A stretch of 64,000 bases of DNA from the NCBI RefSeq assembly GCF_900155525.1, contig NZ_LT706951.1, forward strand, positions 472,508-536,507. Reading direction: 5' to 3'. This document shows positions 51,868 through 59,078 of this stretch, piece after piece. The notes beneath the pieces were generated by a model. It saw only the letters and a list, made by a program, of their open reading frames with translations, was not told the DNA's origin and made no database searches. Position 1 is the stretch's first letter, and each line of letters starts with the position of its first letter. A program made the translations under genes and the position numbers. The stretch comes from Mailhella massiliensis. GTDB lineage: Bacteria; Desulfobacterota; Desulfovibrionia; Desulfovibrionales; Desulfovibrionaceae.

Positions 51868-53352
51868 CTATTTGAACACGTCCATGCCCTTCAGATGTTC
51901 ATCATACATCTTGCCGTACCAGCGGCTGATGAAGTGAACGGTGGAACGGCACGCCTTGCCGACGACAAGGTCAATGTTCTTGCCCTGGGCGCGAGTCGCG
52001 AGGTTGTCAGTCTTGGCCTTAGCGGTTTCGACATGCCAAGCCTTCACGGTCTTGCCGTCAAATTCATCGATAACGATCTTGAACTGATTGTTGGGACCAA
52101 CAAACACGTTGTTGGCTCCGCCGTCGAGTATGATCGGTTCCTTGTTGGCGATCATGACTTCGTGCGGATAGGTGCAGGTCGCTCAGGTCTCGGGACGTGT
52201 CAGGAACCGCGGGTCAGCAGGCCAGTCGGAACCATTCTGCACGTCGATGACATCAGAGTACGCAACCAGTTCAACCTTACCGTCCTTGAACGGATTGCCG
52301 GGGCGGATGTTCAGATGGACAAGAGTCTTGCCATCCTTGGAAACCACGTAGCACTTGTCGCGCTCAACCATGGACTGCATGAGCCACTTGGCGTTCTTGG
52401 AGTCGATGTAGAGCTTCTTGGTGGTGACGGTACCGGCCTTGTCGGTGATGGAAACTTCCACACTGTCCTTGCCGATGTTCTTCACCGCCACGCTGGCGTC
52501 GCCGACCTTGAAGGTGGCGTTGTTGCCGTAGGTTCCCACCACGGGCTTGGCAGGCGACATATAAATGTCGGTGCAGCTGTCGGTGGCAAGTTCGCGGACG
52601 TGAACATTGTTGTTCTCGTCGATCTTGTCCACGACGACCCAGGTGCGGCCCACGCTGGACACGTTGTGTCCGTAGTCGAAGCGGGAAAGGTTGTTCGTTT
52701 CGTCAGGCACGGTATGGCCCACGGGCTGATTGGAGCCCTTCACCAGGCCGCCGTCGGCGGCGTCATTGGTGATGCTGGTGCCTACCTTCACAGGGAAAGA
52801 GGAACCATAATAGTTGCCGGTGGTCTTCACGACCTTGAACACGGCTTCCTTGCCGTCGGCCAGGCCGTAGGTCGTCCAGCCTTCCACGGAAGACAGTTCC
52901 CATCCGCGGGACTTGTCTGCATTGCTGGTAATGACATCGCCCTTCTTCATGACGACGTCGCGCACCACGTCGCGGACATAACGGTCCACGATGACGCGGT
53001 AGGTGTCACCGGCCATGGTGATGGGTTCGTTGTCGAAGGGATACCAGTTGCTGGAACGGGCGGTGGTGTACAGGCCTTCGGAAGGAATGATGATCTTTCC
53101 GTCTTTGATGTAGCTCTGACGAATGACAATACCGTCGTTGATGGTGCGTTCGAGGCCGAGCATGGTCTTTTCGTGACGGTTGTTCACGAGACCGATCAGC
53201 TTGGCCACCACGGCGGCATTGCTCGCAGGAGACTTCATGGCAGCGCTGCCGTCGGCAGGCGCCACTCCAGCCAGAGCTACTCCGTTCAGGCTTGCGGCAA
53301 GCAGCAGAGCAAGAGACAGCTTGCCGAGGCCCTTGAGAGCACTCATGTTCAT
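51868..53352 (-). CDS. Secreted protein with in-frame TGA, candidate selenoprotein (U-x-x-C), family unknown
   Basis: I read one gene of 494 residues across a TGA at 52185-52183 (residue 390). It starts at 53352 with AAGGAG 6 nt upstream. An N-terminal signal peptide (residues 3-30, ending GVALA) is followed by a mature domain rich in Lys, Val and Asp with a beta-rich look. After the TGA the same frame stays open for 104 residues, reading A-T-C, so the TGA opens a U-x-x-C motif like a redox CxxC. The C-terminal part has no own ribosome binding site. selD in this window also has a TGA codon and the strain has yedE/yedF. A 6-bp hairpin lies 28 nt after the TGA. Codon bias suggests strong expression. 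Function unknown; a nonsense mutation is the main alternative. Confidence 0.7.
52131..52154 (-). promoter_or_regulatory. Possible SECIS hairpin after the TGA of the secreted protein
   Basis: On the minus strand TGATCG and CGATCA pair perfectly, with an inner CC/GG extension, 28 nt downstream of the TGA. The apical loop (AACAA) lacks the G or U usual for bacterial SECIS elements, so this is only a candidate. A weaker 3+3-bp structure nearer the TGA is an alternative. Confidence 0.3.
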
Positions 53353-58010: not shown

Positions 58011-59078
58011 CTAAAGCAGAATCAGTCTCGACTTTCCTTCCCGCTGGGGAGTTGCACGGCCCACGAAGAACGCCGGTTCCCCCAGGGCTGCAAGCCTTTC
58101 GCAGGCTTCCTGCCGCCGCGCTTCGGGCACGGCCAGAAGAAGCCCGCCGGAGGTCTGCGCGTCGAAGACCAGCGTGGAACGCAGCTCATCCGCACTTTCG
58201 GTCACGATGGTGCGGCAGGCGCAGTAATCGCGGTTGCGGTAGGTGCCCGCGGGAATAAGCCCGCAGGAGGCGAATTCCTCCACCTGCGGCATGAAGGGCA
58301 GAAGGCCGGTTTCCAGTTCCACGCATACATGGGAACCTCTCGCCATTTCCAGCACATGTCCTCCCAGACCGAAACCGGTGATGTCCGTGGCGGCCTTCAG
58401 CTGCATGGCGCGTATCACCTCCGCGCCGCGGGAGTTCAGCCTTGTGGTCCAGCGGTACATTTCCTGTTCCGCCTCATCGCCCCCCGGCCACTTCGCCTTG
58501 ATGGCCGTGGCAAGCACGCCTGTCCCCAGAGGCTTGGTAAGAATAAGGGCATCCCCCGGCTGCAGGGCGTCGTTCTTCGCCGCGTGCGCCGGGTCGATCA
58601 CGCCCGTGACCGAAAGGCCGAACTTGATCCAATCGTCATCCAGCGTGTGCCCTCCCGCGAGCACGGCCCCGGATTCCGCCACCTTTTCCATGGCCCCGGA
58701 AAGAATATCCGCCAGAACGGACATGGGCGTATCCGATTCCGCCGAAGGCGAGGGAAAAGACGCGATGTTCATGACCGACCAGGGCGTTCCGCCCATGGCA
58801 TACACGTCGGAAAGGGCGTTGGCCGCAGCCGTCTGCCCGAAAAGACGCGCATCGTTGCCTATGGGGCCGAGTATGTCCACCGTCTGTACCAGCGCCATGC
58901 CCGCAGGCGGGGCCTTGATGAGCACGGCATCCTCGTTGTTGGAAAAGCCGTGCAGAATGCGGCCTTCCCTGTCGGGCGGCGGGGTGATGTCGGCAAGTAT
59001 CTGCTCCAGCAACGCCGGAGAAGCCTTGGCCGCTCAGCCGGCCCCTTTCGTCTTGTCCATAAGGCAGTATGTCGCCAT
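58011..59078 (-). CDS. selD: Selenide, water dikinase, selenocysteine-containing
   Basis: The gene reads through a TGA at 59036-59034. From the ATG at 59078 (AAGGAG 6 nt upstream) it gives MATYCLMDKTKGAG-U-AAK, so codon 15 is the catalytic Sec/Cys site of SelD (usual pattern GxG-C/U-x-x-K). The body of 355 residues has NNEDAVLIKA near 46, TVDILGPIGND near 63, AGGHTLDDDW near 120 and TDITGFGLGGHVLEMA near 220. SelD makes selenophosphate from selenide and ATP for selenocysteine and selenouridine. A perfect 7-bp hairpin with loop GUU follows the TGA, matching a bacterial SECIS. It is last in the yedE operon. Gene calling without recoding starts it at 59012, without its catalytic site. Confidence 0.93.
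59004..59020 (-). promoter_or_regulatory. SECIS hairpin of selD
   Basis: CTCCGGC and GCTGGAG pair over 7 bp (one G-U) with the loop GTT, starting 13 nt after the TGA (59036-59034). Distance and a G at the top of the loop agree with bacterial SECIS elements bound by SelB. Confidence 0.75.

Follow-up and report, generated by a model that had tools for sequence, protein, structure and literature searches.

The window analysed here, a stretch of 64,000 nucleotides from Mailhella massiliensis contig NZ_LT706951.1, carries on its minus strand an operon of five genes, encoding a small ComEA-like protein, a candidate selenoprotein, a molybdoenzyme, an iron-sulfur protein and a cytochrome b (Table 1). 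The second gene contains an in-frame TGA: its frame opens at the ATG at 53352, runs for 389 codons to the TGA and continues for 104 codons to a TAG. The original prediction had described this arrangement, together with a terminator directly after the final stop, a U-A-T-C motif at the TGA and a first ATG of the downstream part at 52155, and each of these is confirmed, a terminator-like stem following the TAG on the same strand. It had also placed a Sec-type selD in the window, which is real, with its own TGA in the context GAG-U-AAK, and had noted that the codons after the two TGAs are alike, which they are, GCG being followed by ACC in the candidate and by GCC in selD. An ORF search starting after the TGA of selD gives only a truncated 333-residue ORF at 59012.

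The N-terminus of the candidate looks by eye like a signal peptide, and the protein is thus predicted to be secreted. Its gene has an ENC of 35.4, the second lowest among 12 window genes, a codon bias that does not show expression. A scan of the full protein, with Sec written as Cys, against Pfam and NCBIfam release 20 matched 0 families at an E of 0.1, and distant members of the family give only matches below cut-off in these collections.

Table 1. Features of the locus and of the window referred to in the text
Feature	Position	Strand	Basis
Probable selenoprotein gene, 494 codons/residues with Sec at 390	53352-51868	minus	translation, family alignment, dN/dS
TAG stop of this gene	51870-51868	minus	translation
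Ribosome binding site AAGGAG	53364-53359	minus	by eye
Signal-peptide-like N-terminus, residues 1-28	53352-53269	minus	by eye from translation
In-frame TGA, candidate selenocysteine 390	52185-52183	minus	TGA/TGC/TGT codon counts in homologues
U-A-T-C motif, Sec390 and Cys393	52185-52174	minus	invariant alignment columns
Stem I of proposed SECIS, spanning bases from UGA to hairpin II	52168-52117	minus	folding, pair counts
Hairpin II of proposed SECIS, GCCAACAA-CGUGU-UUGUUGGU, -8.0 kcal/mol	52116-52096	minus	folding, pattern search
Terminator-like stem past TAG	51859-51830	minus	sequence
Small ComEA-like helix-hairpin-helix protein, upstream	53805-53512	minus	HHH_3 62.3 bits, cut-off 27
C-terminal Cys-Asn-Cys of ComEA-like protein	53523-53515	minus	translation
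Molybdopterin oxidoreductase, Tat-like N-terminus, next gene downstream	51600-49444	minus	Pfam; linkage
4Fe-4S subunit, same operon as molybdoenzyme	49431-48670	minus	Pfam; linkage
Cytochrome b subunit, same operon as molybdoenzyme	48673-47963	minus	Pfam; linkage
selD with own in-frame TGA (59036-59034); Sec machinery and SECIS control	59078-58011	minus	profile match, translation

Codon usage at the TGA position and selection beyond it

Cys in place of the TGA codon in other species had been set beforehand as the test of a selenoprotein. The column is covered by 63 distinct homologues, of which 23 have TGA, 33 TGC and 7 TGT, and no other codon occurs; Cys is thus encoded in 40 of the 63, with TGA in the rest. 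None of the outcomes named in advance as refuting is present among them: there is no Trp codon, no TAA or TAG, and no homologue that ends at the column. Admitting TAA, TAG or an absent +3 Cys in the homologue screen gained no further members. The counts come from a motif filter, which misses L128 (TGA, TWH) and the divergent L111, the latter being added by hand for the hairpin II count below; uncounted are L007, whose contig stops six codons past the TGA, and L008, L012, L052, L081 and L112, in which the site is uncovered. TGA is also found in L111, as U-P-Q-C, and in the copies L127 and L128, so that the 27 TGA members considered below comprise 24 with hairpin II together with L127, L128 and L111. 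As for Cys, the short-form copies L041 (= L029) and L042 (= L017) read R-P-E-I-C-A-E-C at the site, and a long form of ~1000 residues with a repeated layout reads D-V-C-G-H-C.

Homologues were matched in 15 of 59 related genomes, a scan of the named genomes gave 48 loci, and the family was found in 36 of 348 genomes in a search of the class and in 10 of 395 in a search of the phylum. It ranges over Desulfovibrionaceae, Desulfomicrobium-like genomes and the Desulfocarbo family, and extends to assemblies assigned by binning to Bacillota and Anaerolineales. TGA copies with a named source come from Mailhella, Bilophila and Desulfovibrio assemblies and from Desulfocarbo indianensis, with further TGA copies in the Bacillota- and Anaerolineales-binned assemblies (taxonomy being the binning as given); the closest named copies of the window's gene are in Mailhella assemblies. 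A sequencing error at the TGA was considered and is very unlikely, since the same TGA recurs in many separate assemblies. Three assemblies with the TGA consist of a single contig (G018, G062 and G619), and the one in G062 belongs to a member of the family.

The codons past the TGA are under purifying selection. Pairwise comparison of six close copies (15 pairs) gives dN/dS values of 0.12-0.20 upstream of the TGA and 0.06-0.27 downstream, and since all 63 homologues scored have either TGA or Cys at the column as well, the conserved coding of this frame beyond the TGA is more than chance. An alignment of 29 sequences has 21 invariant columns, 18 of them from residue 390 onwards, and both the Sec column (TGA written as C) and the +3 Cys are among the 21. 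In a maximum-likelihood tree of the 29 rows, two Cys short forms are nested within the TGA clade and given the starred branches the TGA label must change at least twice, the program warning of long branches that meet.

These data bear directly on the reading in which the TGA is an ordinary stop and the 104 codons beyond it form an independent small gene or a fragment in decay. The post-TGA frame does contain an ATG of its own, at 52155. First of all, however, dN/dS past the TGA is low throughout the range given above. Second, the Cys homologues cross the site in one frame. Third, the ATG is not conserved, other codons standing in its place in L044 and L048-L051. Finally, the invariant +3 Cys precedes this ATG. 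A separate downstream gene was thus rejected on dN/dS, the pre-ATG Cys and the unconserved ATG, and we regard an ordinary stop as extremely improbable.

The genome itself encodes SelA (593.2 bits), SelB (346.8 bits), tRNA-Sec (78.1 bits), the Sec-type SelD of the window and a formate dehydrogenase, FdhA, with one in-frame TGA. tRNA-Sec is above cut-off in 12 of 12 genomes picked for holding TGA copies. Among the 59 relatives, SelB is matched in all 59 and is above cut-off in 54, and tRNA-Sec is above cut-off in 55; with machinery this widespread, its presence is required but is not specific evidence. The window gene shares with known bacterial selenoproteins, as described in PMC13188914 (2026), the in-frame TGA, the Sec/Cys exchange, the U-x-x-C motif and the machinery. 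Table 1 of that paper gives 119 bacterial selenoprotein families and subfamilies, and by name none of these entries matches the window family.

Comparison of the sequences indicates that the two parts of the frame almost certainly make up one secreted protein of 494 residues, with the TGA read as Sec and U-x-x-C taking the place of C-x-x-C in relatives, and the gene is very probably a selenoprotein of a new family. Sec would be inserted at the TGA at 52185-52183 by the ordinary system of SelA, SelB, SelD and tRNA-Sec. A selenoprotein family without a recognised domain would thus be added to those described, and its genes probably appear in annotations as a shortened protein with a separate fragment. 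Searches of open-licence PMC papers found nothing joining selenocysteine with Mailhella, no work combining three of selenoprotein, helix-hairpin-helix, molybdopterin and Bilophila, no mention of selenoprotein in those on Desulfarculales or Desulfocarbo, and no account of the window operon. A deep-learning screen reports 6 known and 0 new selenoprotein genes for Desulfomicrobium orale (PMC12013277).

RNA structure downstream of the UGA

The original prediction had called for a SECIS search from 52185 to about 52110. No good standard SECIS emerged: a bSECIS-style rule applied to the first 60-70 nt after the window TGA gave little, and an Rfam search downstream of the TGA returned no SECIS. What exists is a SECIS-like element of a different layout further downstream, the suggested stretch ending inside the conserved hairpin II (52116-52096). 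Consensus folding of the 60-70 nt yields three pairs, without two-sided change, and folds of 60 nt reach -11.4 kcal/mol in the candidate versus -21.2 in FdhA and -20.7 in SelD. A 7-bp helix at +31/+50 was discarded, as it is hardly above its shuffles. At 90 nt, 17 of 17 TGA copies fold more stably than their dinucleotide-shuffled versions (z -1.5 to -5.3); since the two control SECIS genes have unremarkable values (z 0.2 and -0.7), this stability is a lead and not a specific test. Synonymous-site conservation in 16-codon windows is suggestive only.

Alignment and folding of the 100-120 nt after the TGA revealed two stems. Hairpin II has the pattern CCA[AG]CAA-CGUG[UC]-UUG[CU]UGG. Of the 27 TGA members 24 carry it, and of the 40 Cys members 0; one Cys member (L055) shows a different 7-bp hairpin within the stretch scanned. 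Hairpin II draws on codons that these genes otherwise rarely use (TTT 0.21, GTT 0.18 and GCT 0.12 of their synonymous sets): TTT occurs in 23 of 24 members, with CTT in the remaining one, and GTT or GCT in all 24. One pair is A-U in 17 members and G-C in 7 and is never mixed, thus coupling Asn/Val to Ser/Ala; in our reading of the tree, the switch is made at separate places (L038, L044 and L048-L050). Hairpin II alone shows 5 two-sided cells, where shuffles give 1.6 and none of 500 reaches 5; its covariation score is matched by 35 of 500 shuffles, and 6 of its 8 pairs never vary. The exact pattern, which was drawn from these members, was found at 19 places in the 348 class genomes, all inside the family (the one in G008 being in a member whose contig starts just after the TGA), while a sample of 360 phylum genomes added 4 more places, making 23 of 23 inside the family. 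A reversed control pattern occurs 0 times among the matches listed for the same genome searches.

Stem I occupies the interval before hairpin II and was counted in 26 TGA members (without L111) and 40 Cys members. Its expected bridging pairs number 6.8-12.6 in the 24 members with hairpin II and 0.0-0.1 in L127 and L128; Cys members have a mean of 1.83, and 8 of the 40 reach at least 3. Taking both stems together, 92.5% of 240 cells pair, compared with 22-56% when slid. Against shuffles that do not preserve relatedness, 18 cells with two-sided change are seen versus 6.5 (sd 2.6; 0 of 500 as high), and the covariation score of 0.231 is reached by 0 of 500. Two of the five measures, on the other hand, stay within the shuffles, namely pairs with two-sided change (3 versus 2.5, equalled or exceeded in 251 of 500) and further pair types (9 versus 10.6, equalled or exceeded in 498 of 500). 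Column counts cover stem I only in part because its register differs between lineages. Relative to protein-preserving synonymous shuffles of +3..+93, the 25 TGA members used have a mean z of -2.12 and the 40 Cys members one of -0.17 (p 1.4e-08, taking no account of relatedness). The Desulfocarbo-family copies L106, L107 and L108 have z of -0.2, -0.6 and 0.0, which argues against a universal effect.

The bacterial SECIS model of PMC13188914 allows a loop of 3-9 nt, an upper stem of 4-16 bp, a G at either of the first two loop positions, an energy of <= -7.5 kcal/mol and 16-37 nt from UGA to loop. Hairpin II resembles the SECIS elements so described, having a 5-nt loop and 7-8 bp (8 in the window), a loop CGUGU or CGUGC with G at position two followed by U, and an energy of -8.0 kcal/mol on its own. 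The window element is unlike them in its linear distance from UGA to loop, which at 71-74 nt lies outside the range of that model, and in the bridging stem placed between. With stem I left out, the distance becomes 20-27 nt, and 22 nt in 15 of 24 members. The effective ~22 nt of the window compares with 23 nt in FdhA and 20 nt in SelD, Sec genes of the same genome and for the same SelB, which differ in using a single compact stem-loop directly after the UGA.

The TGA members that lack hairpin II carry ordinary-looking hairpins, as counted on folds: GCACG-AGGU-CGUGC at 22 nt in L127 and L128, and GAUGGCC-GGUCU-GGCCAUC at 21 nt in L111. It is mainly because the layouts exchange in this manner, with no hairpin II where an ordinary hairpin is present, that we infer hairpin II to be a SECIS. 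Stem I would fold out the intervening bases and abut hairpin II, whose CGUGU loop would then be ~22 nt away from the UGA on the path that is left, and we think it rather likely that this two-part RNA element directs Sec insertion.

Two further readings turn on the same features. The TGA might be read through as some other residue, by a near-cognate tRNA or a suppressor, with the RNA stems stimulating readthrough; the place of hairpin II outside the published SECIS spacing, as given in PMC13188914, is in keeping with this. The residue that substitutes in homologues is, however, Cys in 40 of 40, tRNA-Sec is present in all 12 TGA genomes tested, and three TGA members have hairpins of canonical loop and spacing, all of which makes such readthrough highly improbable. 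Alternatively, the gene encodes a selenoprotein, with SelB reading a weak hairpin at ~+22, CGA-AGUCAUGA-UCG, and the two stems serving, for example, pausing or mRNA stability. The three pairs of this hairpin are kept in 98% of cells, and its place is taken in L127 and L128 by a better hairpin, with the loop AGGU. The window stretch at +22, on the other hand, folds to just -0.7 kcal/mol and the pairs are not above shuffles; furthermore, hairpin II is missing from L127, L128 and L111, just those TGA members with an ordinary hairpin, and stem I is missing from L127 and L128, both of which have one. We therefore consider a SelB-read +22 hairpin somewhat unlikely.

The bridged two-part element, if true, would mean that searches built on the 16-37 nt rule overlook such genes, and it bears on how SelB measures distance to the UGA. 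Open-licence PMC literature yielded no two-stem or unusual-spacing SECIS and, for atypical SECIS, the deep-Sep paper alone. As far as Pfam, NCBIfam release 20, PMC13188914 and these literature searches go, neither the selenoprotein family nor its two-part SECIS layout seems to have been described before.

Gene neighbourhood and possible function

The molybdoenzyme subfamily (E up to 1e-100) is present in 22 of the 348 class genomes, 19 of which hold the selenoprotein family against 2.3 expected, the enzyme standing without the family in G115, G194 and G210. This linkage has p 1.2e-18 by genome, a value that ignores relatedness, and 8.3e-05 by genus. Of 19 genomes with the short form, 17 have the molybdoenzyme, the two genes lying 144-1933 bases apart in 13 of 17 and on different contigs in G006, G016, G017 and G173. 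The window's own enzyme, of the Tat-type subfamily, scores far below every NCBIfam cut-off among the matches listed.

The small partner encoded upstream shares the HHH_3 domain with ComEA-like proteins. It is unlike comE in scoring 52 bits where the NCBIfam comE cut-off is 152.35, and in its Cys-x-Cys tail. Small secreted HHH proteins beside the family end in Cys-x-Cys in 24 of 25 cluster members listed, which are those with an N-x-N-type signature, and the tail recurs on the small HHH protein in L127-L129. All three HHH_3 matches of the window's genome lie within ~4.5 kb of members of the selenoprotein family. In the Desulfocarbo family (L123-L126), a different small secreted-looking protein, ending DEGC, is directly upstream in 4 of 4 loci, and no molybdoenzyme of the subfamily was found adjacent there. 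A Bacillota-binned assembly has a lipoprotein-like protein ending CDC downstream of the selenoprotein gene.

A U-x-x-C protein encoded next to small Cys-tailed proteins and a molybdoenzyme complex points to a thiol relay or a sulfur carrier. The periplasmic selenol/thiol pair would exchange with the small Cys-x-Cys-tailed carrier either electrons or a thiol-bound sulfur group, and the exchange would couple to the Tat-exported molybdoenzyme with its iron-sulfur and cytochrome b subunits. On the strength of the gene neighbourhood, such a periplasmic thiol-relay or sulfur-carrier step with carrier and molybdoenzyme can be put forward tentatively. Searching solved structures with sequence profiles turned up no thioredoxin-like chain and nothing usable. 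The motif domain could also be NosL-like and metal-binding, Sec and Cys holding a metal with no electron shuttling. NosL (PF05573) is weakly matched by 3 of 30 C-terminal segments, the best at E 0.0028, and by a single full-length member with an E of 0.029 (15.2 bits versus a cut-off of 24); 27 of the 30 segments, the window's own included, have no match, and we judge this reading distinctly unlikely.

Returning to the bridged two-part SECIS, we lean towards a combined picture in which a hairpin of ~45-52 nt, starting ~12-17 nt after the UGA, abuts hairpin II, whose GU loop would be read by SelB. The spacing rule would thus be kept in space and not in sequence, the layouts would be interchangeable within the family, and the family, with its Cys-tailed carriers and the molybdoenzyme subfamily, may be an undescribed periplasmic sulfur/redox system.

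Among known systems, SoxYZ/SoxCD and DsrC involve carriers with Cys near the C-terminal tail, Sox having a molybdoenzyme partner, and DsbL/DsbI is a dedicated thiol oxidoreductase system beside an arylsulfotransferase. The window family may be likened to these in layout only. A YeiH-like transporter cluster accompanies the Cys long forms in 28 of 28 loci, and an arylsulfotransferase cluster does so in 17; the clusters were identified by Pfam from one member each, the transporter being below the NCBIfam cut-off. A protein of ~175-180 residues adjoins the long form in 8 loci (L060, L067, L053 and others), with no Pfam match for the one member scanned. A Cys long form locus is also present as L134 (G000 contig C28, ~661.7-665 kb). 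Finally, the Cys long form often has a response regulator nearby as well, and in 8 loci a c554-type cytochrome is encoded beside it.
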